Origin: Cetobacterium sp. 2A | Lineage (GTDB): Bacteria > Fusobacteriota > Fusobacteriia > Fusobacteriales > Fusobacteriaceae | Assembly (NCBI RefSeq): GCF_014250685.1 | Contig: NZ_JACFAJ010000014.1 | Coordinates: forward strand, 62,001-126,000 | Length of the DNA: 64,000 nucleotides | Direction of reading: 5' to 3' | Shown here: positions 8,541 to 37,206 of the stretch, in pieces | Layout: the number at the start of each line of letters is the position of its first letter | How positions within the stretch are numbered: position 1 is the first letter of the stretch | Made by a program: the position numbers and the translations under genes | The notes under the pieces: generated by a model | What the model saw: the letters and a program-made list of their open reading frames with translations, nothing else | What the model was told of the DNA's origin: nothing | Databases searched by the model: none

Positions 8541-9422
8541 TTATTTTTCACTATCTTTTAGATAAAATTCATAAGCTTCATTATCTGTATACCCTTTATG
8601 AACTATTAAAGATATTGCCTTTGCCATTGCTGTAGGATGGTTACTCTGGAATATATTTCTTCCCATGTCAACCCCTTTAGCTCCAGCTTTTATACTCTTA
8701 TAAGCAAGTGTTAAAGCCTCCTTTTCAGGTAACTTCTTTCCTCCAGCTATTACAATAGGTACTGGGCACGCTGCTATAACTTCCTCTAATTCATCACAAT
8801 AATAGGTTTTTATTATATTTGCACCTAATTCAGCAATCATTCTAGTTGCTAATTTAAAATATTTAGGTGTTCTTTCCATATCTTTTCCTACGGCTACAAC
8901 TCCCATTACAGGAATATCATATTTTAAAGCTTTATTTATAACTTGTGATAAATTATCTAAACTTTCTCTCTGTCCCTCCGAACCTATAAAAACTTGAACA
9001 GCTAAACAATCAGCATCCATTCTTATAGAGTCATCTATATCTACAGCTACTATTTCTCTACTTAAATCATCATCTAATACCGAAGACCCTGAAGTAACTC
9101 TTAAAACGGTGGCTTTATTATTATTTGGTAAAACACATGTTCTTAATGCTCCTCTTGTAGCCATTAGTGCATCTACATGTTCTGCTACTTTTGGAACTAT
9201 TAAGTCTAATCTCTCAAGACCAGAAACAGATCCCATAAAATATCCGTGATCAAATGCGAACATAACTGTATTACCGCTTTCAGAATTAAAAATATTTGAA
9301 AGTCTTTTTTTCATTCCCCAACCTAAATTTTCAGCTCCCTTGATAAAGAATCCATTTTGATTCTTAAATGGAACATCTAAAAAATAATCTTTTGCTACTT
9401 TCATACCATTTATATCTGCCAT
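8541..9422 (-). CDS. lsrF: LsrF, phospho-AI-2 thiolase
   Basis: A 293-residue class I aldolase-like protein that aligns along its whole length with E. coli LsrF: WGMKKRLSNIFN near residue 35, FDHGYFMGSVSGLERLD, IVIAGGKKLPEKEAL and GVDMGRNIFQS. LsrF takes the isomerised phospho-AI-2 product and transfers an acetyl group to CoA, giving dihydroxyacetone phosphate and acetyl-CoA. The Lys in the KTYYCDE strand is the expected active-site residue. GGGAGG precedes the ATG. It is the last gene of the leftward lsrACDBF operon. The neighbouring lsrG of enterobacteria is absent; a cupin gene lies in the divergent lsrRK operon instead. Confidence 0.93.
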   Translation of the reverse strand: MADINGMKVAKDYFLDVPFKNQNGFFIKGAENLGWGMKKRLSNIFNSESGNTVMFAFDHGYFMGSVSGLERLDLIVPKVAEHVDALMATRGALRTCVLPNNNKATVLRVTSGSSVLDDDLSREIVAVDIDDSIRMDADCLAVQVFIGSEGQRESLDNLSQVINKALKYDIPVMGVVAVGKDMERTPKYFKLATRMIAELGANIIKTYYCDELEEVIAACPVPIVIAGGKKLPEKEALTLAYKSIKAGAKGVDMGRNIFQSNHPTAMAKAISLIVHKGYTDNEAYEFYLKDSEK

Positions 9423-9443
9423 TTTTATTATCCTCCCTGTATT

Positions 9444-10493
9444 TTAGAAATTATAGTTATCTATATTTTCTTTTGTAAATATTGTTCTTTCTGGTAATAA
9501 GACTACTCCTGAATTTTCGTTTGTATCAGCTTTTGGGTCTAAAACTGTATTTGGTAAAACCTCTACTATTCCTATAGTAGGTACATCAATTTTATCACCA
9601 ACTTTAAATGTATTTCCTGCTGCTAAATATGCTGCTAGATATGATGCCATTGCCCCTTGTACTTTTACATCCCATAATCCAAATACAGGAACTGTTCCAT
9701 TTTTAACAAACCCTTTCATTGCAGATGGTGTTGCATATCCTGTAACTATTACCTTTCCCTTCATCCCTTTATTTTCAACTGCCTGAGCTTGCCCAGGTAA
9801 AGCTGTTGAGTCATTGCATATTATTACATCTATATCAGGATGGGCCTCTAGTATTCCCTGTCCAACTTCGACAGCTTTTGCCGCATCTTGATTACTGTAA
9901 TAATTATTAGGAGCCACATTTATCCATTTTGGATAATTCTCTTTTATATATTTCTCTCCTTCTGCTTGCCATGAATTTTGGTCAGTAACAGTTGGAGAAG
10001 AATAATGCCACGCATATTTTATAGCTTTATCTTTAGGATTTTCTATTTGCATTTCCACCATTTCCACTAACATTTCTCCTAATTGTTTAGGAGTTCCTTG
10101 AGAAACCATAAGAGATCTATGATTATTATCAATATCTGAATCCCATGTAACTATTTTTAACCCGTTATTTTTTGCATTATCAACCGCCTTATTAAGTCCA
10201 TTATTTGATAAAGCAGATAAAGCTATCGCATCATACCCTTGAGCCACCGCATTGTTTATTATTTGCACTTGATTCGCTACAGAGGCTTCCGGATTCCCAT
10301 CATATTTCACTTTATATCCTAATTTTTTAGATAATTCTTGTGCACCTTCATTTCCTGTTTCAAAAAACATATTTCCAGATAATTTTGGAATAAAAACAAT
10401 TTGTGTACCTTTTACTGGTTTCACGTCTGCTAAGCTCATCATAGATGAAAATAAAAAGATTCCTATTGAAGATAGTAATAGTTTTTTTCTCAT
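9444..10493 (-). CDS. lsrB: LsrB, AI-2 binding protein
   Basis: A 349-residue periplasmic binding protein with a signal peptide (residues 1-22, SSMMSLA cleavage region). The six positions that contact the AI-2 form R-THMF in Salmonella LsrB are recognisable: Lys in FIPKLSG, Asp in TWDSDID, Asp-Gln in TVTDQNSW, and Pro and Ala in STALPGQA. These residues distinguish true AI-2 receptors from other ribose-binding homologues, so AI-2 binding is a strong inference. It lies between lsrD and lsrF on the same strand, with its own GGGAGG site. Confidence 0.93.
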   Translation of the reverse strand: MRKKLLLSSIGIFLFSSMMSLADVKPVKGTQIVFIPKLSGNMFFETGNEGAQELSKKLGYKVKYDGNPEASVANQVQIINNAVAQGYDAIALSALSNNGLNKAVDNAKNNGLKIVTWDSDIDNNHRSLMVSQGTPKQLGEMLVEMVEMQIENPKDKAIKYAWHYSSPTVTDQNSWQAEGEKYIKENYPKWINVAPNNYYSNQDAAKAVEVGQGILEAHPDIDVIICNDSTALPGQAQAVENKGMKGKVIVTGYATPSAMKGFVKNGTVPVFGLWDVKVQGAMASYLAAYLAAGNTFKVGDKIDVPTIGIVEVLPNTVLDPKADTNENSGVVLLPERTIFTKENIDNYNF

Positions 10494-10505
10494 AACTTTT
10501 CCTCC

Positions 10506-11471
10506 CTATACTTTTTTTATCTTTTTAAAATTCCTTAATGCAACCACTCCAACTAATAAAATTCCGACTGGGATATTCAAATATTGGGTTGAAACATCAA
10601 TCATAGATAATCCAAATTTTAAAAAACCTATTATGAAGCCGGCTAAAATTGTTCCAATCACCCCTCCTTTTCCTCCAGTTGTTAATGTTCCTCCTAAAAC
10701 AACTGTTGTTATAATTGGTAGAGTTAATTCATTCCCTGCGTCAGATCGTGCTGAACCTAAATAGCTAGTTAATAATATTCCAGCTAAGGCGGCTCCAAAT
10801 CCAGATATAACATATGTACTCGCCACTATGAACTTTGGATTTAATCCTGAATAACTCATTGCATTTGGTGATACTCCTGATAAGTAAACTTGTCTTCCAT
10901 AAGATGTTTTACTCAAAACTATATATAAAATGGAAATAATTAATAAAATTAATATAAATAAAATTGGTAGTCCAAATATTTTTGTATGAGTAAATTCTAC
11001 AAAAATTTCAGGAAATCCTGAAATTCCTTCAAAAGCGCTAGATACTCCAATCTTAGAGACATTAATTGCTAATCCTGAAAATAGAAAACTTCCTCCCAAG
11101 GTTACAATCATGGGTTGAACACCTATGTACGCTATAATTATCCTACTAAATAATCCACATAAAGCCCCTAAAAGAAGAACTAATAATATGGCAACAACTA
11201 TATTTATATTAAAGTTTTTCCATAATATACCTAATGTTATAGATGACAAGCCCATTATGGCTCCCGATTGGATATCAATTCCTCCGGTTAAAAAAACAAA
11301 AGTTAAAAATAAAGCTACAATTATTATAAAAGAATAGTCGTTGATACTACCAAGAAATATATTTGGTCTTAATATTCTGGAATTTAAACTTCCAAATATT
11401 AAAATTTCACTTATTAGTAAGAATGTAAGAAAGACTTCCCAGTTAGAAAAAATTTTCTTAACTTTATCCAT
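10506..11471 (-). CDS. lsrD: LsrD, AI-2 importer permease
   Basis: A 321-residue membrane protein of the BPD_transp_2 (ribose-type) permease family with about nine hydrophobic segments. FLTGGIDIQSGAIMGLSS and TTVVLGGTLTTGGKGG are the family's conserved loops, the second touching the ATPase. It overlaps the end of lsrC by 8 bases, and the ribosome binding site AAAGGAGAAGG lies inside lsrC, so the two are coupled. Together with LsrC it forms the membrane channel of the AI-2 importer. Confidence 0.9.
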   Translation of the reverse strand: MDKVKKIFSNWEVFLTFLLISEILIFGSLNSRILRPNIFLGSINDYSFIIIVALFLTFVFLTGGIDIQSGAIMGLSSITLGILWKNFNINIVVAILLVLLLGALCGLFSRIIIAYIGVQPMIVTLGGSFLFSGLAINVSKIGVSSAFEGISGFPEIFVEFTHTKIFGLPILFILILLIISILYIVLSKTSYGRQVYLSGVSPNAMSYSGLNPKFIVASTYVISGFGAALAGILLTSYLGSARSDAGNELTLPIITTVVLGGTLTTGGKGGVIGTILAGFIIGFLKFGLSMIDVSTQYLNIPVGILLVGVVALRNFKKIKKV

Positions 11472-12465
11472 TTATCCCTTCTCCTTTAACTCTGTTACTA
11501 AGACGTATTTTTCTATTTTTATTAACAGAATATTTCTGTAATAATGTATCACTAATAACTATTATGACTAAAAGAGCTCCCGTTATAGTGTTATTTAAAT
11601 CTGAAGAAAATCCCATAAATACTAAGACTTTACTTAATGAAGCCATAATAATTACTCCTAATGATGAACCTATTATGCTTCCTACTCCTCCTGTCAAACT
11701 TATCCCACCCAAAACACATCCTGCTATGATTGTCATTTCATATCCATTTCCTGCTATTGGTGCTATAAATCCCGTTCTTGAAGCAAATACAATAGCAGCT
11801 ATTCCCGAAAAAATACCAGATAAAATAAATGAGATTCTTTTAGTTCTTTTCACAGGTATTCCAACTAAATGTGCTCCATTTGGATTATCTCCAACAGCTT
11901 TAAAATATCCACCTTGTGGTACTTTTGTTAAATATAGGTGCATCGTAATAACCAATAAAAAACTTATCAAGAAAAATATGTTAACTCCCAAAATACTGTC
12001 TTGAGATAAACTTTTAAAATCTGTTGGAAGATTTTCTATCCATCTACCTTTGGTTATAACATAGATGACACCTCTTACAATACCTAATGTTCCCAACGTC
12101 ATAATGATAGAACTGATTTCAAAATCGACAACACCTACTGCATTAATTAATCCTATAATTCCACCTATTAAAATTACAGCTATTAATACTACAAATATAT
12201 TATAGCCATCTCTTATTAAAATTCCAGAGACAGAAGCACATAATCCTAAAGTTGATCCTATTGATACATCTATCTCTCCTGTCATAATTACAAAAGATAT
12301 TCCTATTGATAAAATTATATATATAGAGCTCCCATATAAAGTACTTAATATATTATCACTATTAAAAAATGCTGGATTAATTGTTCCTACTATTAAAAAT
12401 AGAATTATAATCATATATAAAGGTGTTATTTCTCTGGATTTTAAAATACTTTTAACTCTTTCCAT
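11464..12465 (-). CDS. lsrC: LsrC, AI-2 importer permease
   Basis: A 333-residue permease of the same family as LsrD, with FVIMTGEIDVSIGSTLGLC near residue 60 and IAGCVLGGISLTGGVGS near residue 240. Its order after lsrA and before lsrD reproduces the enterobacterial lsrACDB order, which together with LsrB assigns the substrate. The start ATG follows GAGGAG. It overlaps lsrD by 8 bases. Confidence 0.9.
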   Translation of the reverse strand: MERVKSILKSREITPLYMIIILFLIVGTINPAFFNSDNILSTLYGSSIYIILSIGISFVIMTGEIDVSIGSTLGLCASVSGILIRDGYNIFVVLIAVILIGGIIGLINAVGVVDFEISSIIMTLGTLGIVRGVIYVITKGRWIENLPTDFKSLSQDSILGVNIFFLISFLLVITMHLYLTKVPQGGYFKAVGDNPNGAHLVGIPVKRTKRISFILSGIFSGIAAIVFASRTGFIAPIAGNGYEMTIIAGCVLGGISLTGGVGSIIGSSLGVIIMASLSKVLVFMGFSSDLNNTITGALLVIIVISDTLLQKYSVNKNRKIRLSNRVKGEGING

Positions 12466-12487
12466 AAATACTCCTCTCTTAATGGTT

Positions 12488-13987
12488 TTATATTCCGTAA
12501 GACGCTTTCATTAAATTATCTAAAGTAATTTCTTCTTTTATAAATTCCTTCTCAATCTTTCCTTGGTGCATAACTATAGTTTTATCTGATAACTCTACAA
12601 TTTCATCCAAATCAGAAGATATAAGTATTATGCTCACACCTTCCTGCTTTAATTTTTTTATTATATTATAAACATCAATTCTAGCACCTGCATCAATTCC
12701 CCTTGTAGGCTCGTCTAATATTAATACTTTTGGATTTGAAGATAATGCTCGCCCTATAATAACCTTTTGTTGATTTCCACCTGAAAGTTCTCCAATTTCC
12801 TGTTTTAAACTACTAATTTTAGTATTGAAATCATTTATATATCTTGTAGCTATTTGGTTTTCTATTTTTCTATTTATAAAAACCTTAGATATTTTTTTTA
12901 ATATACAAGATGTTGTATTAAAAGATATTGGAGTAATTTTAAAAATACCATTTAAATATCTATCTTCGGGAACATAATTGATTCCTAATTCAATTATCTC
13001 TTTTGTTGATTTTCCAGTTATATTTTTTCCCTCTAAATATATGCCTCCATTTAAGGATTTATCCATTCCAAATAAAGTGGTTGCAAATTCAGTTCTTCCA
13101 GCTCCTATAACCCCTGCAACCCCTAATATTTCTCCTGAATAAGCTGAAAAGTTAAGATTATTAAATCCATATCCTGAATAATTTTTAACTTCTAAAACTT
13201 TAATTTTTTTTAAATCTATAATTTCATTTTCTTCTATTGCTCCAAATCTTGTATTATTCTCTTCATTTTTTTTATTTAATAATGCCTCTATTAGCATCTC
13301 CTTTGTAAAATCTTCTGTTTTTCCATTTAATGTAATTCTTCCATCACACATTACTACTACTTTATTTGTTATTTGAAAAACTTCACTTAATCTATGAGTA
13401 ATATAAAATATTCCCACTCCATCTTTTTTTAAATCCTCTATTATTTCAAATAACATCTGCGTTTCTTTAAATGTTAATGTAGAAGTTGGTTCATCTAGTA
13501 TCAAAATTCTAGATTTTCTTAAGAGTCCTCTTAAGATTTCTACTATTTGTTGTTCAGCTATAGATAATGTATAGGCTTTTCCTTTTAAATCAACTTTCCA
13601 ATCGAATTTTTTCAAAAAAATATTTACTTCTTTTAAAAGTTCACTCTTATCACCGGATATTCCTACAACTATATTTTCAAATATACTCATATTTTGGAAA
13701 AGTAATGGTTCTTGAGGTACTAAGTACACTCCATTTAAAATAGCTAAAGAGGGTGTTGATAAATCAGTCAATTTATCATTTATATAGATTTCTCCCTGAT
13801 CTGCACTATAGATTCCCATTAAAATTTTCATTAATGTACTTTTTCCAGCACCATTTCCACCAATTATAGAGATTACATCACCTCTATAAATCTTTAAGTT
13901 GATACCTTTTAATACTTTATTTTCACCAAAAGATTTATGAACTTCTTTTATAGATAACATTGGGGTATCTTTTTTTGAGGATAACAT
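12488..13987 (-). CDS. lsrA: LsrA, AI-2 importer double ATPase
   Basis: A 499-residue cytoplasmic protein with two fused ATPase domains, as in RbsA and LsrA. The first has Walker A GGNGAGKSTL and Walker B ILILDEPTSTLT; the second has signature LSGGNQQKV and Walker B VLILDEPTRGID, with the degenerate second Walker A (GAGRTE) normal for this class. I start it at the ATG at 13987 because AAGGAGG lies eight bases upstream; an in-frame ATG at 14014 has no such site. It is the first gene of lsrACDBF and is divergent from lsrR across a regulatory region of about 215 bases. Confidence 0.92.
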   Translation of the reverse strand: MLSSKKDTPMLSIKEVHKSFGENKVLKGINLKIYRGDVISIIGGNGAGKSTLMKILMGIYSADQGEIYINDKLTDLSTPSLAILNGVYLVPQEPLLFQNMSIFENIVVGISGDKSELLKEVNIFLKKFDWKVDLKGKAYTLSIAEQQIVEILRGLLRKSRILILDEPTSTLTFKETQMLFEIIEDLKKDGVGIFYITHRLSEVFQITNKVVVMCDGRITLNGKTEDFTKEMLIEALLNKKNEENNTRFGAIEENEIIDLKKIKVLEVKNYSGYGFNNLNFSAYSGEILGVAGVIGAGRTEFATTLFGMDKSLNGGIYLEGKNITGKSTKEIIELGINYVPEDRYLNGIFKITPISFNTTSCILKKISKVFINRKIENQIATRYINDFNTKISSLKQEIGELSGGNQQKVIIGRALSSNPKVLILDEPTRGIDAGARIDVYNIIKKLKQEGVSIILISSDLDEIVELSDKTIVMHQGKIEKEFIKEEITLDNLMKASYGI

Positions 13988-14011
13988 CAATAAAACCTCC
14001 TTATCATAAAT

Positions 14012-14022
14012 CAAAACTTTTG
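14012..14022. promoter_or_regulatory. Palindrome upstream of lsrA, possible LsrR site
   Basis: CAAAACTTTTG is a perfect 11-base palindrome about 25 bases before the lsrA start. It is set in a stretch (TCAAAACTTTTGTTTTTAAC) that resembles the lsrR-proximal one (TCAAACAATTGTTTTTAAAC). The shared sequence suggests the same regulator binds both ends of the divergent region; this is inference. Confidence 0.4.
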
Positions 14023-14048
14023 TTTTTAACTTTTTCTTTTGTCAATCG

Positions 14049-14077
14049 AGTTTAGCTCATTAATTTTTATTTGTCAA
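14049..14077 (-). promoter_or_regulatory. Candidate lsrA promoter
   Basis: On the minus strand TTGACA (14072-14077) and TAAACT (14049-14054) are 17 bases apart, about 60 bases upstream of lsrA. The -35 is perfect, the -10 weak (4 of 6), as expected for a regulated promoter. Confidence 0.4.
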
Positions 14078-14125
14078 ATTTTTTTAGATACTTTTTTGAA
14101 AATAATTCAATTTTTATAAGGTCTA

Positions 14126-14154
14126 TTGACTTTGAAACATTTAAGTGATATTAT
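14126..14154 (+). promoter_or_regulatory. Candidate lsrRK promoter
   Basis: TTGACT (14126-14131) and TATTAT (14149-14154) are separated by 17 bases, 50 bases before the lsrR start. Transcription would begin near 14161, inside or beside the palindrome at 14164-14175. Confidence 0.6.
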
Positions 14155-14163
14155 CAACTTATC

Positions 14164-14175
14164 AAACAATTGTTT
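14164..14175. promoter_or_regulatory. Palindrome at lsrR transcription start, probable LsrR operator
   Basis: AAACAATTGTTT is a perfect 12-base palindrome placed ten bases after the -10 element, covering the expected transcription start of lsrRK. The position suits a repressor site for autoregulation by LsrR. No binding data; assignment rests on location and on the related palindrome near lsrA. Confidence 0.5.
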
Positions 14176-14203
14176 TTAAACAAAACAAATGTAAGGAGGA
14201 TCT

Positions 14204-15115
14204 ATGAATTCTTATGAACAAAATCTAATTTTTAAAATTACTTGGTCGTATTTTATGGAAAATAAAACACAACAAGAAATTTCTGAAATGTATAATATAT
14301 CTAGAGCTAAAATAATGAAGTTACTATCTGAAGCTAAAGAACAAAAAATAATACAATTTAAAATAAGTTCTGATGCATCAAACTTCATATCTTTAGAGCA
14401 AAAAATAAAACTTAAATACTCTTTAAAGGATGTATTTATAACACCATCTAACACAGTTGATATAAATGAAACTATAGCAAAATCTGCCGCCATGTTTATA
14501 CAAGAGAATCTATCTGAGAATGACTTTCTAAATATTGGTTTTGGAGATACAGTTTCTAAAATAGTTAGTAATATATCTTTCGAGGAAAATAATTCTACAT
14601 CCTTAATATCTTTAACTGGAGGTGTCAATTATTATCTTTCATCCCTAGATAGTTTTAACAGAAAGAAAACTAACTTATACATAATACCGTGTCCATTTTC
14701 ACTTTCTAGTGAAGAGTTAGCTAATCAACTTTTTAAAGAAAACTCTGTCAATGAGATTCTTAAAATGTCACAATTTGCTAAAATGACAGTTATTGGAATC
14801 GGGGCTATCTCAAAATACGATACAATTGTTAAGGACCAAAAATTAAGTTCCAATGAAATAGTTGTTCTAAAAAATAAAGGGGTGGTCGCTGATATTTTGG
14901 GATATTTTATTAACAACGCTGGAGAAGAAGTAGAAGATAATTTTTCTAAAAAAATTATTAGTACTCACTTTAACTCTTTAAAAAATCTTAAAAATGTAAT
15001 TGCTGTGGCTGGAGGTGAGCATAAATACGAAGCAATTAAAGCAGCACTAAAAACAAATATTATAGATATTCTTTTTACTGATGAAAATACTGCAATTTAT
15101 TTAGCTAAGGACTAA
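14204..15115 (+). CDS. lsrR: LsrR, SorC-family regulator of AI-2 uptake
   Basis: A 303-residue regulator with an N-terminal helix-turn-helix (residues about 18-50, QQEISEMYNISRAKIMKLL) and a C-terminal sugar-phosphate-binding SorC domain (SLTGGVNYYL, AVAGGEHKYEAIKAAL, IDILFTDENTA). In enterobacteria LsrR represses lsr genes until phospho-AI-2 binds it. Its place at the head of lsrRK, divergent from lsrACDBF, matches that arrangement. AAGGAGG lies seven bases before the ATG. A palindrome covers its own predicted transcription start, suggesting autoregulation. Eleven bases separate it from the lsrK reading frame region. Confidence 0.92.
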   Translation: MNSYEQNLIFKITWSYFMENKTQQEISEMYNISRAKIMKLLSEAKEQKIIQFKISSDASNFISLEQKIKLKYSLKDVFITPSNTVDINETIAKSAAMFIQENLSENDFLNIGFGDTVSKIVSNISFEENNSTSLISLTGGVNYYLSSLDSFNRKKTNLYIIPCPFSLSSEELANQLFKENSVNEILKMSQFAKMTVIGIGAISKYDTIVKDQKLSSNEIVVLKNKGVVADILGYFINNAGEEVEDNFSKKIISTHFNSLKNLKNVIAVAGGEHKYEAIKAALKTNIIDILFTDENTAIYLAKD

Positions 15116-15134
15116 AATTTAAGAGGTGGAGTAT

Positions 15135-16697
15135 ATGAGTAAATATCTAATGACAATCGATGCTGGTACTGGAAGTGTTAGAGCAGTTATTTTTAATTTA
15201 AAAGGGGATGAAATTTCTTGTGTTTCTAGGGAATGGGAACATAAGGAAGATCCAAAATATAAAGGATCTATGGATTTTGACATAGAACTCAATTGGAATT
15301 TAACATGCCAATGTATAAATGAATCTATATCTAAAGCTAATATTAAATCTAATGAGATTATAGCAATTACAACTACTTCAATGAGAGAAGCTATTGTTTT
15401 ATATGATCAAAATCTAAAAGAAATTTGGGCTTGTGCAAATGTTGATTCAAGAGCTATTGATGAAGTTAGAGTATTAAAAGATTATAATCCATCTTTGGAA
15501 AAAGAAATATATGATTTAACTGGACAAACTTTTGCACTAGGAAGTATTCCTAGACTTCTTTGGATAAAAAAGCATCTTCCTGAAATTTATAATAAAACTT
15601 ACAGAATCTCAATGCTAAATGATTGGATTATTTTTAAACTTTCAAATAACATTGTTAGTGAAGCTAGTAACTCATGTACAACAGGTATTTTTAATATAAA
15701 AACAAATGACTGGGATAAAGATATTTCCAAAAAATGTAATTTGAAAAATGATATTTTTCCAACAACTCTAAAAAGTAGTTCTTTAGCTGGCTATGTCAGC
15801 CTAGAAGCATCTAAAATAACTGGATTAGATAAGGATATACCTATTTTTATTGGTGGTGGAGATGCTCAACTTGGATCAATTGGAATTGGATTAATTAATT
15901 CCAATGAAGCTGGGATTTTTGGTGGGAGCTTTTGGCAATATGAATTTAATACAGCTACTCCTTTAATGGATAAAAGTTACAGAGTTCGTGTTAATTCACA
16001 TGCTATAGATAATATATGGCAGTATGAAGCTATTGCTTTTTTCCCTGGACTTATTATGAGATGGTTTAGAGATGCTTTTTGTCAATCTGAAAAAGAAGAA
16101 AGTTTAAAAACAGGAGAAGATACATACAGTATAATTTCGAAGAAAGCTGTAGATGTCCCTGTAGGAAGTAATGGACTTATCTGTACTTTTTCAAATGTTA
16201 TGAATTTTATTGACTGGAGACATGCTTCACCTACATTTACTAATTTTTCTTTTGATAGCAATAAGTTTAATAAATATACTTTTTATAAAGCTATTATGGA
16301 GAATTCTTGCTATGTTACAAAAGGTCATGTTGAATTAATAAAAGAGGTAACTGGAATCTTTCCTTCTGAAATTACTTTTGCTTCTGGAGCATCTAAAAGT
16401 CCTATGTGGTGTCAAATTTTATCAGATGTTCTAGGTATAAAAATAAAAGTTCCTAAAATTAAAGAAGCTACTGCTTTAGGTGGAGCTATTTTAACTAGTG
16501 TGGCAATAGGTGAGTATTCGACTATTAAAGAAGCATGTGAAAATATGATTCAATTTGAAAAAGTTTATATCCCTAATAATGAAAATCATTTAATTTATAA
16601 AGATATTTATAGTAATTGGTTAAATGTTTATTCAGATCAACTAGAAATTGCTAATAAAAATTTGGTTAACCACATGTGGTTAGCTCCTGGACTATAA
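15135..16697 (+). CDS. lsrK: LsrK, AI-2 kinase
   Basis: A 520-residue FGGY-family kinase that phosphorylates imported AI-2, trapping it and producing the LsrR inducer. Conserved stretches include the N-terminal phosphate loop DAGTGSVRAVIF, WACANVDSRA, GGGDAQLGSIGIG with the catalytic-region Asp, MRWFRDAFC, FASGASKSPMW and KEATALGGA. The last residues MWLAPGL match the E. coli LsrK end. I start at the ATG at 15135 (MSKYLMTIDAG), preceded by GAGGTGG, rather than the upstream in-frame GTG. It follows lsrR and precedes the cupin gene by 17 bases, one operon. Confidence 0.93.
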   Translation: MSKYLMTIDAGTGSVRAVIFNLKGDEISCVSREWEHKEDPKYKGSMDFDIELNWNLTCQCINESISKANIKSNEIIAITTTSMREAIVLYDQNLKEIWACANVDSRAIDEVRVLKDYNPSLEKEIYDLTGQTFALGSIPRLLWIKKHLPEIYNKTYRISMLNDWIIFKLSNNIVSEASNSCTTGIFNIKTNDWDKDISKKCNLKNDIFPTTLKSSSLAGYVSLEASKITGLDKDIPIFIGGGDAQLGSIGIGLINSNEAGIFGGSFWQYEFNTATPLMDKSYRVRVNSHAIDNIWQYEAIAFFPGLIMRWFRDAFCQSEKEESLKTGEDTYSIISKKAVDVPVGSNGLICTFSNVMNFIDWRHASPTFTNFSFDSNKFNKYTFYKAIMENSCYVTKGHVELIKEVTGIFPSEITFASGASKSPMWCQILSDVLGIKIKVPKIKEATALGGAILTSVAIGEYSTIKEACENMIQFEKVYIPNNENHLIYKDIYSNWLNVYSDQLEIANKNLVNHMWLAPGL

Positions 16698-16714
16698 AAA
16701 GGAGGTAATAAAAT

Positions 16715-17068
16715 ATGTATATAGTAGATGAAAAAGATTCAGAATATAGATTTGGAAATTTAGGTCCAAAATATTTAATGAAAGGACCTAGAATGAATTA
16801 TTCAATTGTACAATTTCCCCCAAATACAGATTTCCAAGCTCATTATCATGAAATAATGGAAGAAAATTTTTATATACTTGAAGGTAAAATAGATATTATT
16901 GTAGACAATATCTTACATACTTTAACAAAGGGTCAATTTATTCATATAGAACCATCAGAAGTTCATTATGTAAAAAACCCTTATGATGAAACAGTTAAAA
17001 TGGTTTCTACTTTAGCTCCTTTTGTCGTAAAAGATAAAATTGATGTTGAGAATCCTATTAATTATTAA
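16715..17068 (+). CDS. Single-domain cupin in the lsr locus
   Basis: A 117-residue cytoplasmic cupin with both metal motifs intact: HYHEIMEENFYILEG (two His and a Glu) and GQFIHIEPSEVH (third His). Such proteins are usually metal-dependent isomerases or dioxygenases, or bind a sugar. It follows lsrK by 17 bases with a strong AAGGAGG, so it belongs to the lsrRK operon. The enterobacterial locus has lsrG, a ferredoxin-like-fold isomerase of phospho-AI-2, and no lsrG is visible here. I infer that this cupin may do that isomerisation step; nothing in the sequence proves it. It ends at a terminator. Confidence 0.82.
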   Translation: MYIVDEKDSEYRFGNLGPKYLMKGPRMNYSIVQFPPNTDFQAHYHEIMEENFYILEGKIDIIVDNILHTLTKGQFIHIEPSEVHYVKNPYDETVKMVSTLAPFVVKDKIDVENPINY

Positions 17069-17084
17069 AAAATAATTTTTAAAT

Positions 17085-17120
17085 AAAGAAAAGCAGAGTC
17101 AATCGACCCTGCTTTTCTTT
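17085..17120. terminator. Bidirectional intrinsic terminator
   Basis: AAAGAAAAGCAGAGTC and GACCCTGCTTTTCTTT form a stem with an AATC loop and A/T tracts on both sides, between the convergent cupin and GNAT genes. Confidence 0.85.
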
Positions 17121-17121
17121 A

Positions 17122-25629: not shown

Positions 25630-25683
25630 ATTTTTTTGTATAAAATATCGAGTATAGTTTTCACAATTTTCAAGGAGGAACTA

Positions 25684-26691
25684 ATGAAAAAAAGTTTTAC
25701 AAATAAAGAGTTCAATGAAATTTTGTCAATTTTGTCAAATGATTATGATATTTATGCTCCAATTACTCTTCCATATAAAGGAACTTTTTCAGATACCGAT
25801 TCTATTAAATATGGAAAAATATCAAATATTGAGGAAATAAACTTAAACAACAAATCTCATTATTCCGCAAAAGAAATATTACTTCCAATAACTCAAACTT
25901 TATTTTATTTTACAGAAAAAGAATTTATCAAACCAAAAATTAAAACTAAAAAAAGTTTAATCTTTCTAAGAAGTTGTGATTTACATTCTGTAAATCGAGT
26001 TGAAAATATCTATTTACACAACAAGTATTCAGATGAATATTATAAAGAAGTAAGAGATAAAGTTAAATTTATAGTTATGGGATGTCCAGGACAAGGTTGG
26101 GATAGTTGTTTTTGTGCGTCCATGGGAACTAACAAAACAGAGATGTACAATATTGGCGTTAAATTTCAAGACAATAAAATTTTTGTAGATGTAAAAGATC
26201 AAGACTTTAAAGAAGTTTTCAATAACGGAGTGGATTCAGAATTTGAAATGGAATTTGTAACTTCTAATAAAGAAGTAGTTACAATACCGGAGAGAATAAA
26301 TGAGGACGAGGTAATTAACTTTGAGATGTGGAGAGATTATGATCGTTGTATAGCTTGCGGACGTTGTAATTTTGTATGTCCAACTTGTACTTGTTTCACT
26401 ATGCAAGATATTTTTTATAAAGATAATGAAAAAAATGGTGAAAGAAGAAGAGTATGGGCATCTTGCCATGTTGACGGTTTTACAACTATGGCTGGTGGAC
26501 ATGAATTTAGAAAAAAAACTGGAGATAGAATGAGATTTAAAGTTTTACACAAAATTTCTGACTATAAAAAACGTTTTGGAGTTCAAATGTGTACAGGATG
26601 CGGAAGATGTGAAGATATTTGTCCAGAGTATATCTCATATATTAATTGTATCAATAAACTTGCAAAGAAATTAGGTGATAAAAATGACTAA
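25684..26691 (+). CDS. asrA: Anaerobic sulfite reductase subunit A
   Basis: A 335-residue iron-sulfur protein of the AsrA family, an electron-transfer subunit of the NADH-dependent sulfite reductase. The N-terminal region contains FLRSCDLHSVNRVENIY and a Cys cluster GCPGQGWDSCFCASMG; the C-terminal half has two 4Fe-4S motifs, CIACGRCNFVCPTCTC (near 220) and CTGCGRCEDICPEY (near 305). The ATG at 25684 follows AAGGAGG; the longer in-frame start at 25636 lies within the leader. Its last 8 bases overlap asrB. The three asr genes form one operon ending at the terminator near 28500. Confidence 0.95.
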   Translation: MKKSFTNKEFNEILSILSNDYDIYAPITLPYKGTFSDTDSIKYGKISNIEEINLNNKSHYSAKEILLPITQTLFYFTEKEFIKPKIKTKKSLIFLRSCDLHSVNRVENIYLHNKYSDEYYKEVRDKVKFIVMGCPGQGWDSCFCASMGTNKTEMYNIGVKFQDNKIFVDVKDQDFKEVFNNGVDSEFEMEFVTSNKEVVTIPERINEDEVINFEMWRDYDRCIACGRCNFVCPTCTCFTMQDIFYKDNEKNGERRRVWASCHVDGFTTMAGGHEFRKKTGDRMRFKVLHKISDYKKRFGVQMCTGCGRCEDICPEYISYINCINKLAKKLGDKND

Positions 26692-27478
26692 TATATATAA
26701 ACCAACTGCCTGTGAAATTTTAAGTATAAAATCTGAAAGTCCTATTGAGTGGCTATTTAGAGTTAAAACTAACATAAAACCAGAGCCTGGACAATTTATT
26801 CAGGTATCTATTCCTAAAGTTGGAGAAGCTCCTATTTCAGTTGCTGGCTACAATATTGAAGAGGGTTGGATAGAATTTTTAATTAGAAAGGTTGGAAAAG
26901 TTACAGATGCAATATTTAATCTTAATCCTGGAGACTTCTTATTTTTAAGAGGCCCTTATGGTAATTGTTTCCCACTTGAACAATATACAGGAAAAAATTT
27001 AGTTATTGTAGCTGGTGGAAGTGGAACTGCACCTGTTAGACCACTTATAGAAAAATTTATAAACGATAAAATAACTACAGTAGATTTACTCTTAGGGTTT
27101 AAAGATTTAAATTCGGTTCTTTTTAAGGATGAAATTTTAAACTGGAAGAAAAAATCATCTATGATTTTAACTGTTGATAAAGGTTGCGGACTTGACGGAG
27201 AGTGTGTTGGTTTAGTAACTGAATATATTCCACAATTAAAACTAATAAATGATATTCAAAACTTGGAGGTTGTTATAGTTGGACCTCCAATTATGATGAA
27301 ATTTTCAGCTTTAGAATTTTTAAAATTAGGTATTCCAGAAAATCAAATTTGGGTTTCTTTTGAAAGAAATATGTCTTGTGCTGTTGGAAAATGTGGGCAT
27401 TGTAAAATAGACGAAACTTATGTTTGTTTAGAAGGACCAATATTTAATTATACAAAAGCTAAAACACTTTTGGACTAG
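26684..27478 (+). CDS. asrB: Anaerobic sulfite reductase subunit B (NADH-binding flavoprotein)
   Basis: A 264-residue protein of the ferredoxin-NADP reductase family that brings electrons from NADH via FAD to the sulfite reductase. Visible features are FIQVSIPKVGEAPISVAGY (flavin region), GPYGNCFPLEQYTGKNLV and the VAGGSGTAPVRPL nucleotide-binding loop, and a C-terminal 2Fe-2S cluster motif FERNMSCAVGKCGHCKI followed by VCLEGPIF. It starts at the ATG at 26684 inside the end of asrA, with AGGTGA upstream, so it is translationally coupled. Nine bases separate it from asrC. Confidence 0.95.
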   Translation: MTNIYKPTACEILSIKSESPIEWLFRVKTNIKPEPGQFIQVSIPKVGEAPISVAGYNIEEGWIEFLIRKVGKVTDAIFNLNPGDFLFLRGPYGNCFPLEQYTGKNLVIVAGGSGTAPVRPLIEKFINDKITTVDLLLGFKDLNSVLFKDEILNWKKKSSMILTVDKGCGLDGECVGLVTEYIPQLKLINDIQNLEVVIVGPPIMMKFSALEFLKLGIPENQIWVSFERNMSCAVGKCGHCKIDETYVCLEGPIFNYTKAKTLLD

Positions 27479-27487
27479 GAGGAAAAA

Positions 27488-28480
27488 ATGGCTTTAGAAT
27501 TGGTGAGAAAAACTTTTACTAAAAATGGATATAGAGTCACAAAAAATAGAGATGAAACTGCATTAAGAGTCAGAGTTCCCGGTGGAGAAATAACCGCAGA
27601 TTTACTTTTACAAGTTTCTGAAATTGCTAAAAAATTTGGAAATGGAAAAGTTCATATAACAACTCGTCAAGGATTCGAAATTAAAGGTATTGACATTAGA
27701 AAGGTAGACGAAGTTAATAAGGCTATTCAACCCCTTATAGACGGAATGGATATCAATCAGCCTAACGGGATTGGAAATGGTTATCCTGCGGCGGGAACAA
27801 GAAATATTACGGCATGTATTGGAAATCAAGTTTGTCCAAAAGGACAGTACAATACTACTGAGCTTGCAAAAAAAGTTGAGAAAGCAATATTCCCAAGTGA
27901 TTATCATTTTAAAGTTGCAATTACTGGATGCCCAAACGACTGCATTAAAACTAGGATGCATGATTTTGGTATAACTGGTATGGCACATCCTTTATATGAG
28001 TCATACAGATGTGTATCTTGTGGTGCTTGTGTTAAAAAGTGCAAAGGACTATCTACAGGAGCTTTAACATCTGAAAACTATAAAGTTGTAAGAGATCACA
28101 GCAAATGTATCGGTTGTGGAGAATGTGTTTTAAACTGTCCAACTTCAGCTTGGACAAGAGATGAAAACAAATACTACAGATTCTCAATATTAGGAAGAAC
28201 AGGGAAAAAAAATCCTCGTTTAGCTGAAGATTGGATTTTATGGGCTGATGAAGAATCTCTTTTAAAAATAATCGTAAATACATACAGTTTTGTTGGAGAG
28301 CATATCAATAAATCTCTTGCAAAAGAGCATATAGGTTATATTGTTGATAGAACAGGATTTATGATGTTTAAAAATTGGGCATTAAAAGATGTCGATTTAA
28401 ATCCCCTTGCTGTTATTAGAGAAAATGTTTATTGGAACGGAATTATCTATTCTGGCGCTGAAAATGATTTAGGAAAATAA
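27488..28480 (+). CDS. asrC: Anaerobic sulfite reductase subunit C (siroheme subunit)
   Basis: A 330-residue catalytic subunit that reduces sulfite to sulfide. The coupled siroheme/4Fe-4S ligands appear as ACIGNQVCPKGQYNT and GCPNDCIKTRMHDFG. An inserted ferredoxin-like part has CVSCGACVKKC and CIGCGECVLNCPTSAW. The N-terminal half contains the nitrite/sulfite reductase ferredoxin-like repeat (VHITTRQGFEIKGI). AGGAGG lies just upstream. It closes the asrABC operon and overlaps nothing downstream. Confidence 0.95.
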   Translation: MALELVRKTFTKNGYRVTKNRDETALRVRVPGGEITADLLLQVSEIAKKFGNGKVHITTRQGFEIKGIDIRKVDEVNKAIQPLIDGMDINQPNGIGNGYPAAGTRNITACIGNQVCPKGQYNTTELAKKVEKAIFPSDYHFKVAITGCPNDCIKTRMHDFGITGMAHPLYESYRCVSCGACVKKCKGLSTGALTSENYKVVRDHSKCIGCGECVLNCPTSAWTRDENKYYRFSILGRTGKKNPRLAEDWILWADEESLLKIIVNTYSFVGEHINKSLAKEHIGYIVDRTGFMMFKNWALKDVDLNPLAVIRENVYWNGIIYSGAENDLGK

Positions 28481-32900: not shown

Positions 32901-34397
32901 GTGGAAAGTTTTTTATTAGAAGCTAAAAATATAAAAAAAGAATTTCCAGGAGTTTTAGCCTTAGATGGAGTCTCTTTTAATTTAAAAAAAGGAGAGGTTC
33001 ATGCTCTACTTGGAGAAAATGGAGCTGGAAAATCAACTATGATGAAAATATTTTCTGGAGTCCATAAAAAAAATGGTGGAGAACTTCTACTAAATGGAAA
33101 TCCTATAGAAATAAAGTCACCAATTCACGCTGCTAGTCTTGGGATAGGAATTATATATCAAGAATTAAATCTTTGCCCTCATTTGACTGTTGCTGAAAAT
33201 ATTTTTTTAAGTCGTGAATTTACTAAAGGAATATCTGTAGATAAGAAAAAAATGGAAATAGAAGCAAAAAAGATACTTGATACTTTACATGCTGATATCG
33301 ACCCCAGTGTTAAAACCAAAAATCTTTCAATTTCAAAACAACAAATGGTTGAAATTGCTAAAGCTTTATCACAAAATGCAGAAATAATAATAATGGATGA
33401 ACCAACTTCGTCTCTTAGTGAAAGAGAAATAGCTCAACTTTTTGAAATAATAAATAAATTAAAGAAAAATGGTAAAGGAATTGTTTATATTTCACACAAG
33501 CTAGATGAATTGAAGGAAATAACGGATAGAGTTACAATTTTTAGAGACGGTAAACATATATTGACTGATGATTTTGCAAATTTAACTTTGGATGAAATTA
33601 TTTCAAAAATGGTTGGAAGAAGTATCGAAGATAAATTTCCAAGATTAGATAGAAAAAGAGAAGAAAATAAAAAATTAGAAGTTAAAAATTTAACCAACGC
33701 TTTTGTAAAAAATATAGATTTAGATCTTTATGGTGGAGAAGTTTTAGGAATTGCTGGATTAGTTGGGGCTGGAAGAACTGAGCTTTGCAAAACTATTTTT
33801 GGGGCCTTCGGTAAATATGAAGGTGAAATAAAAGTAGACGGACAACTTGTTAATATATCTAATCCACAAGACTCTATAAAACATGGTATATCTTATATTG
33901 CGGAAGATAGAAAAAGAGAAGGTCTTGCAATTAATATGGGTGTTTCTCAAAATATTAGTTTTTCAATACTGGATAAAATTTCAAGTAAAATAATCGGTTA
34001 TATTTTTCAAAAAGATTTAGAAAAACATTCTAACGAAATGGTTGAAAAATTAAAAATTAAAACTCCTCACTTAAAGCAAAAAGTTAAAAATTTAAGTGGT
34101 GGTAATCAACAAAAAATTGTAATAGGGAAGTGGCTTTTAAGAAATCCAAAAATAATAATTTTTGATGAACCTACTAGAGGTATTGATGTAAGTGCTAAAG
34201 TTGAAATTTACAAGATAATAAACGAATTAAAAAATAATGGCTTAGGTGTCATAATAATCTCTTCAGAGTTACCAGAAATTTTAGGAATCACTGATAGAAT
34301 AGCTGTTATGTGCAACGGAAAAGTCAAAAAGATTTTAGAAACTAAAAAAACAACACAAGAAGAGATTATGCATTATGCTACTCAATTCAATGATTAG
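32901..34397 (+). CDS. Ribose/allose-type sugar ABC importer, double ATPase
   Basis: A 498-residue ATPase with two fused nucleotide-binding domains, as in RbsA/MglA/AlsA. Domain 1 has Walker A GENGAGKSTM and Walker B IIIMDEPTSSLS; domain 2 has LSGGNQQKIVIGKWL and IIIFDEPTRGID. It begins at a GTG, four to five bases after AGGAGGG; the overlapping ATG is out of frame. It heads an operon ATPase-permease-binding protein-ROK kinase, the content of the E. coli allose or ribose clusters. The sugar is not fixed by sequence. Confidence 0.88.
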   Translation: MESFLLEAKNIKKEFPGVLALDGVSFNLKKGEVHALLGENGAGKSTMMKIFSGVHKKNGGELLLNGNPIEIKSPIHAASLGIGIIYQELNLCPHLTVAENIFLSREFTKGISVDKKKMEIEAKKILDTLHADIDPSVKTKNLSISKQQMVEIAKALSQNAEIIIMDEPTSSLSEREIAQLFEIINKLKKNGKGIVYISHKLDELKEITDRVTIFRDGKHILTDDFANLTLDEIISKMVGRSIEDKFPRLDRKREENKKLEVKNLTNAFVKNIDLDLYGGEVLGIAGLVGAGRTELCKTIFGAFGKYEGEIKVDGQLVNISNPQDSIKHGISYIAEDRKREGLAINMGVSQNISFSILDKISSKIIGYIFQKDLEKHSNEMVEKLKIKTPHLKQKVKNLSGGNQQKIVIGKWLLRNPKIIIFDEPTRGIDVSAKVEIYKIINELKNNGLGVIIISSELPEILGITDRIAVMCNGKVKKILETKKTTQEEIMHYATQFND

Positions 34398-34408
34398 GAG
34401 GAAATATT

Positions 34409-35371
34409 TTGAATTATAGTTTATCTTTACGTTCAATTAGAGGAAGAGTTGGAGAAGAAAATTTTCAAATTCTATCGGTTTTAAGTGGTCTACTTACAAT
34501 GGTATTTTTCTTTTCTATGGGTTCTCCGTATTTTTTTACAACTAATAATTTACTAACTATAGCTTTACAAACATCTATTATCGCCATTATTGCTATTGGA
34601 CAAACTTTTGTATTAATAACTACAGGAATAGATTTATCTATAGGTTCTAATATGGCTCTTGCTGGTATTATTACGTCAATGGCTTTGGTATCAGGACTTC
34701 CTATGGCTGTTGCTATAATATTAGGACTAATAGCTGGTATTATTTCAGGAGCTATCAATGGTTTACTTATCGTTTTAGCTGATTTACCACCATTTGTTGT
34801 AACTCTTGGAAGTATGAGTATTGTTAGAGGTTTGGCTCTTGTAATTACAAATGGAATTCCTATTAGCGGGCTTCCTAAAGCATTTAGATATATAGGAAAT
34901 GGAAAACTTTTAGGAATTCCTTTCTCAGTTCTTCTAATGATTTTTCTAACTTTGTTATTTGGATTTATATTATCTAAAACTAGACTTGGAACTAATATTT
35001 ATGCTTGTGGAAGCAACTTAGAAGCCGCAAGACTTTCTGGAATAAACACAAAAAAAACTCTTATCACTGTATATATATTTTCTGGTTTCTTAGCTGCCGT
35101 AGCTGGTATTGTTCTTGCATCAAGAATAGCTTCAGGTCAACCTAATGCAGGAATGGGGTATGAGCTTTACGCTGTTGCATCCTCTGTTATTGGTGGAACT
35201 AGTTTAGCTGGTGGAGAAGGTATTATGACAGGAACTCTTATAGGAGCTCTAGTAATTGGTGTTTTAAGAAATGGATTAAACCTAATGGGTGTATCTGCAT
35301 TTTTACAGGAGATTTTAATCGGTGTTGTTATAATTTTAGCAGTATTTGCCGATAGAATAAAAAGAAGATAA
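34409..35371 (+). CDS. Ribose/allose-type sugar ABC importer, permease
   Basis: A 320-residue RbsC-family permease of about nine to ten hydrophobic segments, with LITTGIDLSIGSNMALAG and ASSVIGGTSLAGGEG, the usual contact loop region. The start is a TTG, eight bases after AGGAGG, 11 bases downstream of the ATPase stop. It would form a homodimeric channel fed by the next gene's binding protein. Confidence 0.88.
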   Translation: MNYSLSLRSIRGRVGEENFQILSVLSGLLTMVFFFSMGSPYFFTTNNLLTIALQTSIIAIIAIGQTFVLITTGIDLSIGSNMALAGIITSMALVSGLPMAVAIILGLIAGIISGAINGLLIVLADLPPFVVTLGSMSIVRGLALVITNGIPISGLPKAFRYIGNGKLLGIPFSVLLMIFLTLLFGFILSKTRLGTNIYACGSNLEAARLSGINTKKTLITVYIFSGFLAAVAGIVLASRIASGQPNAGMGYELYAVASSVIGGTSLAGGEGIMTGTLIGALVIGVLRNGLNLMGVSAFLQEILIGVVIILAVFADRIKRR

Positions 35372-35386
35372 AAGGGGAGGATTTTT

Positions 35387-36295
35387 ATGAAAAAAAGTTT
35401 AAAATTTTTATTGTGTGCGGGATTATTTTTAGGAATGATTAACACTGCTTTTGCTGCAAAGAAATTCGTTTTAATCACTATGGACTCTATGGATGAACAT
35501 TGGCTTTCTGTTAAAAAAGGAGCTGAAAAAAAGGCGGCTGAATTAGAAGGAGTTGAACTGTTATTCCGTGCTCCTGCTGGAAAAGTAGATCCTAACGAAC
35601 AAACTAGAATGGTGGAAGATGCAATAAACCAAAATGTTGATGCAATCTTAATCGCACCTTCTGATAAATCTGCTTTAGCTCCTGTTGTAGACAGAGCAAT
35701 AGAATCTAAAATTCCAGTAGTTATAATCGATTCACCTATCGACAGTGAAGGATATGTAACTTTCTTATCAACTGATAACTATGCAGCTGGTGCTTTAGCT
35801 GCAGATACTCTTGCTAACTTAGTTGATAAAAAAGGTAAAGTTGCTATAATAAATGCTCAACCTGGGGCTGGAACAGCAATTGCTAGATCTTCTGGTTTTG
35901 AAGATAGACTAAAATCAACTTACCCTGAAATGAAAGTTGTTACTATTCAATATTCAAATGGAGATAAATCATTAGCTTTAAATCAAGCAACTGATATAAT
36001 GACAGCTAATCCTGATTTAGTTGGATTCTATGCTTCAAATGAAGGTTCAACTGTTGGAGTTTCAAGAGCTCTAGAAGAAGCTGGTAAAGGTGGAGTAATT
36101 AAACTTGTTGGTTTTGACTTCTCTAAAGATACTATCACAGGTTTAAATAATGGTACTATTCAAGCTTCTATGGTTCAAAATCCTGAAATGATGGGTTATA
36201 AAGGTGTTGAGGCAGCATTTAAATTTATAAACAAAGAAACTGTTGAAAATCATATGGATACTGGTGTAAAAGTGGTAACTAAAAAGGACCTTTAA
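35387..36295 (+). CDS. Ribose/allose-type sugar-binding protein
   Basis: A 302-residue periplasmic binding protein with a signal peptide (residues 1-23, NTAFA-AKK cleavage). The mature part shows the type I fold of the ribose-binding family: VKKGAEKKAAELEGVEL, QNVDAILIAPSDKSAL, IPVVIIDSPID and KLVGFDFSKDTITGLNNG. It resembles RbsB/AlsB but binding-site residues cannot assign the sugar with confidence. It overlaps the kinase gene by one base (TAATG). Confidence 0.88.
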   Translation: MKKSLKFLLCAGLFLGMINTAFAAKKFVLITMDSMDEHWLSVKKGAEKKAAELEGVELLFRAPAGKVDPNEQTRMVEDAINQNVDAILIAPSDKSALAPVVDRAIESKIPVVIIDSPIDSEGYVTFLSTDNYAAGALAADTLANLVDKKGKVAIINAQPGAGTAIARSSGFEDRLKSTYPEMKVVTIQYSNGDKSLALNQATDIMTANPDLVGFYASNEGSTVGVSRALEEAGKGGVIKLVGFDFSKDTITGLNNGTIQASMVQNPEMMGYKGVEAAFKFINKETVENHMDTGVKVVTKKDL

Positions 36296-37206
36296 TGAAA
36301 TATTATTTAGGACTAGATATAGGTGGTACTAAAATGGCCACAACGATTGCAGACAAACATTTTAATATATTAAAAAAAATAGTTTTTCAAACATCTGAAA
36401 CAATCACTCCAGAAAAAACATTAGAAAAATTCTATTTAACAATTGATAAGATTTTAAAAGATTTATCGATTGATTTACAAGATATAAAATCTATTGGAAT
36501 AAGCTGTGGTGGCCCATTAGATAGTAAAAAAGGAATAATACTCTCACCTCCTAATTTACCAACATGGGATTATGTTGAAATAGTTAAAATTTTATCAAAA
36601 AAATATTCCAAACCAGTTTTTATACAAAATGATGCTAATGCTTGTGCCTTAGTTGAATGGAAATTAGGAGCCGGAAAAAATTTAGATAATGTAATTTTTT
36701 TAACTTTTGGAACTGGAATGGGAGCTGGACTTATTTTAAATGGAAAACTTTATACTGGTAAAAATGATATGGCTGGAGAAATTGGGCATATTAGATTATC
36801 AGAAGAGGGACCTATAGGATACAATAAAAAAGGCTCTTTTGAGGGATTCTGTAGTGGTGGTGGAATAGTTCAACTTGCTAAAATGAGAGGCCTAAATCTT
36901 AATACCGCTCAAGAGGTTTTAGAGCAAGCACAAAGTGGAAATAATTTAGCTAAAAGTATTATTGACGAAAGCGCTAATTACTTAGGATTAGGACTATCTG
37001 TCTTGATCGATATTTTAAACCCTGAAGCTATTATTATTGGAAGTATCTACACAAGATGTGAAGATTTATTTCAAGAAAAAGTTACAGAAGTTTTAAAACA
37101 AGAAACATTACAAATATCTTTTGACAATTGCAGAATACTAAAATCTGAATTAAAAGAATCTTTAGGAGATTTAGCAGCTATTATCGTTGCTACTGGTGAA
37201 TACTAA
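36295..37206 (+). CDS. ROK-family sugar kinase
   Basis: A 303-residue kinase with the N-terminal ATP motif GLDIGGTKMA, the catalytic region QNDANACALVEW, TFGTGMGAGLI and GEIGHIRLS. The zinc-binding motif of many ROK proteins (CxCGxxGCxE) is absent; the corresponding loop reads GSFEGFCSGGGI, a known Zn-less ROK form. It overlaps the sugar-binding protein gene by one base, so it probably phosphorylates the sugar that the transporter imports. E. coli allokinase AlsK is in the same kind of operon. No isomerase is present in the operon. Confidence 0.87.
   Translation: MKYYLGLDIGGTKMATTIADKHFNILKKIVFQTSETITPEKTLEKFYLTIDKILKDLSIDLQDIKSIGISCGGPLDSKKGIILSPPNLPTWDYVEIVKILSKKYSKPVFIQNDANACALVEWKLGAGKNLDNVIFLTFGTGMGAGLILNGKLYTGKNDMAGEIGHIRLSEEGPIGYNKKGSFEGFCSGGGIVQLAKMRGLNLNTAQEVLEQAQSGNNLAKSIIDESANYLGLGLSVLIDILNPEAIIIGSIYTRCEDLFQEKVTEVLKQETLQISFDNCRILKSELKESLGDLAAIIVATGEY

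Follow-up and report, generated by a model that had tools for sequence, protein, structure and literature searches.

A cupin encoded directly after lsrK as a putative phospho-autoinducer-2 isomerase in Cetobacterium sp. 2A, a bacterium without lsrG

The gene lsrG is part of the classical autoinducer-2 (AI-2) operon of Escherichia coli but does not occur in every Lsr system. Its product is widely regarded as the enzyme acting on phospho-AI-2 ahead of LsrF. According to a review, LsrG isomerizes phosphorylated 4,5-dihydroxy-2,3-pentanedione (DPD), and LsrF moves an acetyl group to coenzyme A (CoA), yielding dihydroxyacetone phosphate (DHAP) and acetyl-CoA (PMC8016206). Besides, Quan and Bentley (2012; PMC3420918) drew attention to a gene for a “mannose-6-phosphate isomerase” beside lsrK in Salmonella, Spirochaeta smaragdinae and the Bacillus cereus group, and proposed that its product might process phospho-AI-2. 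The adjacency of lsrK and this cupin gene, together with the suggested role on phospho-AI-2, is therefore already known. The present analysis concerns such a locus in Cetobacterium sp. 2A (Fusobacteriota), situated at 8541–17068 of a stretch of 64,000 nucleotides which is referred to as the window and whose positions are used throughout. The importer, LsrR, LsrK, LsrF and the divergent layout are shared with the Lsr systems of E. coli and Salmonella, whereas the window differs from them by the missing lsrG, a cupin gene after lsrK, a clostridial-type LsrB site and a genome without luxS. The best explanation as a whole, to which a probability of roughly 60% is assigned, is an operon for scavenging and catabolizing AI-2 in which the cupin performs the step of LsrG, i.e., the isomerization of phospho-DPD, with an unrelated fold.

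The cupin gene (16715–17068, plus strand) encodes a single-domain protein of 117 residues (Cupin_2, 58.6 bits), for which no NCBIfam model scored above its cut-off and which is proposed here as phospho-DPD isomerase. Only 17 nt separate it from the stop codon of lsrK, and the strong ribosome-binding sequence AAAGGAGGT precedes its start. An earlier interpretation of the same DNA from its letters alone, hereafter the sequence-only reading, had stated that the cupin is translated directly after lsrK, with which this arrangement agrees. Directly 3' of the cupin gene follows a hairpin with a U-rich 3' side (17084–17121, plus strand; −20.3 kcal/mol, z −8.6), so that the lsrR-lsrK unit ends with the cupin gene. 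The hairpin was not among the results of a simple terminator scan; it is a probable transcription terminator, common to the cupin unit and the convergent gene. The family of LsrG (ABM, PF03992) had zero matches in the entire 2.59-Mb genome, with the same search being positive in 11 of 14 control genomes; on this ground, a distantly related LsrG that might have gone unnoticed was rejected. The lack of lsrG noted in the sequence-only reading consequently holds beyond the locus, and the orthologue elsewhere in the genome that it had allowed for was not found with PF03992. No luxS was detected in the whole genome either, so that any AI-2 used would come from other species.

The distribution of the cupin was followed by an LsrK-alignment scan of genome contigs with one genome per species, and the 80 loci obtained are the nearest matches of the query and were thus not drawn at random. 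They originate mostly from Clostridia and additionally from spirochaetes, Planctomycetota-labelled records, Succinivibrio and Parafannyhessea. A homologous cupin gene was located directly 3' of lsrK on the same strand in all loci with downstream sequence (78 of 78), while lsrG was found in none of these 78 within the fetched flanks and lsrF was present in most of the nearest-lsrK loci. This corresponds to the co-occurrence pattern anticipated in the sequence-only reading. Most relatives outside the Proteobacteria share the cupin at the site in question. Whole-genome searches of 46 of these genomes with an LsrG profile were negative in 40; the other six gave weak ABM matches only, which were rejected as LsrG given their 31–43 bits compared with 134–159 bits for true LsrG. 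Altogether, 97 of 97 collected lsr cupins adjoin lsrK on its strand across several phyla, ruling out a chance cupin beside the operon, and in Clostridium ragsdalei the gene order is identical to that of the window, cupin included. Among 98 sampled Fusobacteriota, a trustworthy lsrK-cupin copy occurred in one. A second fusobacterial copy (locus L002, contig 117 of genome G051) was set aside as independent support because it lies on a 3.6-kb contig at 51% GC versus 29% for the window; the contig may well be foreign to that assembly. In unbiased samples, lsrK was carried by 1 of 369 Gammaproteobacteria and 2 of 341 genomes of the class of Anaerocolumna, too few for a statement on co-occurrence. 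A scan of viral contigs with the cupin gave no match, and the copies it matched in a phage collection were of the Salmonella type and probably stem from bacterial DNA deposited under phage entries.

The order of Succinivibrio allowed cupin and lsrG to be compared within one lineage, since 30 of the 346 genomes drawn contained lsrK. LsrG reached 134–159 bits in 25 of them and at most 38 bits in the other five, and the cupin was found in six, always beside lsrK. Accordingly, 24 genomes had lsrG only, five the cupin only, one both (G687) and none neither, an exclusion with a Fisher p of 4e-5 when genomes are treated as independent. Within the phylum of Treponema (256 genomes, 12 with an LsrK match), five genomes combined lsrF with a window-type cupin and had no LsrG, two had a more distant cupin and one had lsrK on an incomplete contig. 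In three further genomes, the LsrK match was a divergent LsrK-like protein not belonging to an lsr locus, and LsrG-like proteins of 89–102 bits were encoded elsewhere in the genome. Such proteins of 89–102 bits were seen in the spirochaetes G1232, G1196, G1448 and G1261 (L233–L236), in none of the lsrK loci read.

The position after lsrK is also taken by lsrG itself. In Thalassospira, Sinorhizobium, a Roseateles-labelled plasmid and Alloyangia (L087, L089, L090, L092), lsrG lies directly 3' of lsrK. These Alphaproteobacterial-type operons feature a class II aldolase/adducin gene and no lsrF, and thus the cleavage step seems to be exchangeable as well. At the other extreme, lsrF and the lsrK-cupin pair stand alone, without lsr importer or repressor, in six loci of Lachnospiraceae and treponeme type (L036, L062, L055, L058, L073, L086), where their neighbors are housekeeping genes (e.g., pyrG, ftsH and uvrC). 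A replacement of LsrG predicts three genes for three steps, i.e., kinase, isomerase and thiolase, as present in these stand-alone modules, which possibly dispose of internally formed DPD. Taken together, the near mutual exclusion, the common slot after lsrK and the lsrF-lsrK-cupin modules support a functional equivalence of the cupin to LsrG. As to further genes nearby, an rbsD-type gene follows right after the cupin in the lsr operon of a Lacticaseibacillus paracasei plasmid (L004, positions 12371–12766 of that locus), and an RbsD/FucU gene lies just ahead of lsrG in Roseicitreum (L088).

The protein itself displays the features of a metal cupin. The motif H43-x-H45-x4-E50...H84 is complete, as the sequence-only reading had recognized, and is conserved among relatives, as are the basic residues R12, K19, R26, K/R95 and K108. 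The AlphaFold2 model (predicted local distance difference test, pLDDT, of 95.4) shows a cupin barrel and the protein has ten strands, so that the HxH(x)4E...H motif and the predicted double-stranded beta-helix together place the protein in the cupin superfamily. By fold it stands outside the LsrG family, with Cupin_2 as its only domain and no ABM or dimeric alpha-beta fold. Archaeal single-domain phosphomannose isomerases are among its nearest solved relatives with a named activity (profile E-value 1e-16; template-modeling scores 0.81/0.84), and these enzymes act, as is proposed for the cupin, on a phosphorylated hydroxy-carbonyl. The Thermococcus representatives (PDB 7zvy, 7zvm) resemble the window protein as single-domain metal cupins of similar size but share only about 24% identity with it, use another substrate and are archaeal. 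The relation observed is one of fold and profile similarity, which does not amount to orthology.

On this basis, a pathway can be proposed in which LsrACDB would import AI-2 and LsrK would phosphorylate DPD. The cupin would then convert phospho-DPD into the isomer that serves LsrF as substrate for the CoA-dependent cleavage to DHAP and acetyl-CoA. The chemistry would likely be a shift between C4 and C3 by way of an enediol(ate) held on a metal; H43, H45, E50 and H84 would bind this metal, and R12, K19, R26, K/R95 and K108 would grip the phosphate. That the cupin is an enzyme of the AI-2 pathway is very probable; that it performs this particular step is more likely than not and is weighed in the following.

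Several observations weigh against it. Cupins are functionally very varied, and the top PDB profile match of the window protein is a quercetin dioxygenase. The LsrK tree separates lsrG operons and cupin operons as two clades and requires only two cupin/lsrG switches, and therefore the Fisher p overstates the evidence. Among the spirochaetes, G1448 possesses a distant cupin after lsrK in addition to a separate LsrG-like ABM protein of 89 bits, and G1331 (L226) an lsrF-lsrK pair with neither cupin nor lsrG, in a fragmented assembly. Finally, the Salmonella operon contains lsrG plus a cupin after lsrK, next to lsrF and lsrE. As lsrG mutants still show raised lsr transcription (PMC2728841), the cupin of Salmonella does not cover for LsrG.

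The idea that the cupin never occurs with lsrG was therefore rejected on account of G687, Salmonella and part of the E. coli genomes. Of 5426 E. coli genomes, 125 encode a cupin that shares about 70% DNA identity with that of Salmonella, and the one inspected, E. coli DA33133 (L244), carries a Salmonella-like lsr island with lsrG, epimerase and cupin beside insertion sequence (IS) elements. The Salmonella cupin occupies the same slot after lsrK and shares about 35% identity with the window cupin over the full length. Still, it belongs to a separate clade together with the cupins of G687, Deinococcus, G820 and two spirochaetes (support 99/95, some long branches), and it may have changed its role or be a relic. 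The window's own clade was never seen with a confident lsrG in the genomes examined. Thus, the cupin's presence in lsrG genomes, which the sequence-only reading had named as an argument against itself, does occur but is confined to the Salmonella-type operon.

Four other explanations of the cupin have to be set against an isomerase function. The cupin might act before LsrK and open, dehydrate or epimerize cyclic or hydrated DPD in a manner similar to KdgF, which linearizes unsaturated uronates, with the LsrG step being done otherwise or needless. Its tie to lsrK even where no lsrF adjoins, as in the lsrK-cupin pair of a Deinococcus plasmid, would suit such a role, as would its coexistence with lsrG in Salmonella-type operons, the appearance of KdgF among its fold matches and the RbsD-type mutarotase gene behind it in Lacticaseibacillus. 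A pre-kinase role is nevertheless unlikely, as it leaves unexplained both the mutual avoidance of window-type cupins and lsrG and the occurrence of lsrG in the same slot in Alphaproteobacteria; moreover, the LsrK of E. coli K-12 functions without a cupin. An accessory function comparable to that of Salmonella LsrE, by which the cupin would clear a side product (e.g., a phospho-DPD adduct) or lower phospho-DPD in order to re-arm LsrR, draws on the joint maintenance of lsrG, lsrF, lsrE and cupin in Salmonella, on the divergence of the Salmonella-type clade and on the co-regulation of the cupin gene with lsr in this organism (PMC4804515, PMC3420918). An accessory gene is, however, expected neither almost everywhere that lsrG is lacking nor as one of only three genes in the stand-alone modules, which renders this explanation improbable, too.

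Acireductone dioxygenase and quercetinase are cupins acting on vicinal oxygenated carbons, and by analogy the protein could be an oxygenase which breaks phospho-DPD, in line with the first rank of quercetin dioxygenase in the profile search. This is very improbable: the carriers, i.e., Clostridia, Fusobacteriota and Treponema, are largely strict anaerobes and an oxygen-using reaction is thus unlikely, and the retention of lsrF beside the cupin implies that the substrate of LsrF is still produced. Hardly credible at all is a cupin unrelated to AI-2 which merely hitchhikes with the operon. Although Cupin_2 is among the commonest small domains, the adjacency and common direction with lsrK in every one of the 97 cases, spread over several phyla, as well as the conserved metal site and basic residues contradict it. 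The isomerization of phospho-DPD is preferred as the function of the window's cupin.

The sequence-only reading had described the cupin as a non-orthologous replacement, standing in place of LsrG. The equivalent role contained in this wording is supported by exclusion, slot and modules, but the direction which it implies is not. In the four genomes of the Succinivibrio order with window-type cupins, LsrK falls inside the cupin clade, and the operon therefore probably moved as a block. The LsrK tree is unrooted; cupins occur on both sides of its deep splits, whereas LsrG is limited to one clade, so that LsrG may equally be the newcomer. The distribution leans toward the cupin as the older form. 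Possible, though on balance doubtful, is the wider scenario in which, outside Proteobacteria, phospho-AI-2 would mainly be isomerized by a family of metal cupins that had been partners of LsrK and LsrF before LsrG, with LsrG as a later takeover in one clade and the overlap preserved in Salmonella-type operons. In that case, the importer-less lsrF-lsrK-cupin modules would be intracellular units of DPD disposal rather than signaling systems.

The remaining genes of the locus form two divergent blocks according to open reading frames (ORFs), NCBIfam and Pfam: lsrF, B, D, C and A on the minus strand (8541–14014) and lsrR, lsrK and the cupin gene on the plus strand (14204–17068). The phospho-HPD (3-hydroxy-2,4-pentanedione 5-phosphate) thiolase gene lsrF (8541–9422, minus) matches NF006081 with 404 bits (cut-off 297), and its product aligns over the full length to the LsrF structure 3gkf, with the lysine segment IIKTYY conserved. 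The AI-2 kinase gene lsrK (15126–16697, plus) scores 699 bits with NF008187 (cut-off 528), and the sole strong PDB match of its product is the autoinducer-2 kinase 5ya0; ATG 15135, preceded by GAGGTGG, is the more likely start than 15126. With LsrK and LsrF above their cut-offs and lsrRK divergent from lsrACDBF, the locus has these traits of an Lsr system. The other genes are assigned by their top NCBIfam models below the respective cut-offs, namely an lsrD-like permease (10506–11471, minus; 247 bits, cut-off 500; also by operon position), an lsrC-like permease (11464–12465, minus; 245 bits, cut-off 388), an lsrA-like ATPase (12488–14014, minus; 533 bits, cut-off 586) and an lsrR-like repressor (14204–15115, plus; 207 bits, cut-off 486; Sugar-bind PF04198). 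Gene set, order and coordinates given in the sequence-only reading are hence retained, with this reservation for LsrA, C, D and R. The AI-2-binding protein LsrB (9444–10493, minus) exceeds the cut-off of NF011937 (390 versus 384 bits) and represents a clostridial variant of the binding site. We take the AI-2 contacts of Salmonella LsrB to be K35, D116, D166, Q167, P220 and A222. Of these six contacts, all kept according to the sequence-only reading, residue alignment retained K, D, D and Q, while N and S replace P220 and A222. The top PDB match is 6dsp (named LsrB; 427 bits), presumably the protein of Clostridium saccharobutylicum that Torcato et al. (2019; cited in PMC12268683) described. It has the same two substitutions within an identical ICNDSTALPG stretch, and AI-2 binding by the window's LsrB therefore still appears plausible. 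Elsewhere in the window, translations read by eye suggest likely anaerobic sulfite reductase genes (25636–28480) and a likely ribose-type ABC operon with a ROK kinase (32901–37206).

A literature search revealed no statement that this cupin replaces LsrG, most subscription papers being outside its scope, and no paper joining Fusobacterium, AI-2 and lsrG. Beyond the known adjacency, the new observations are the nearly universal presence of the cupin where lsrG is missing, the near mutual exclusion with lsrG, the two cupin clades that have to be separated, the occurrence of lsrG in the same slot and the minimal three-gene modules. If most lsr operons of gut Clostridia, treponemes and their relatives do use the cupin, surveys based on lsrG overlook their capacity for AI-2 removal. 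Likewise, a named and easily purified protein family would be available for assays at once, and two unrelated folds would serve one signal-degrading step in otherwise matching operons. The STM4071-type gene of Salmonella resembles the window's cupin gene in lying directly after lsrK and in being alignable over the full length, but it encodes a member of a divergent clade and coexists with lsrG. LsrG shares the pathway position and, in Alphaproteobacteria, the slot after lsrK, but it is a ferredoxin-like ABM domain compared with a cupin barrel with metal site. The AI-2 operons of Clostridia agree with the window in gene order including the cupin (C. ragsdalei, L009) and in the LsrB site variant (6dsp), and the window differs from them as a low-GC fusobacterial copy.

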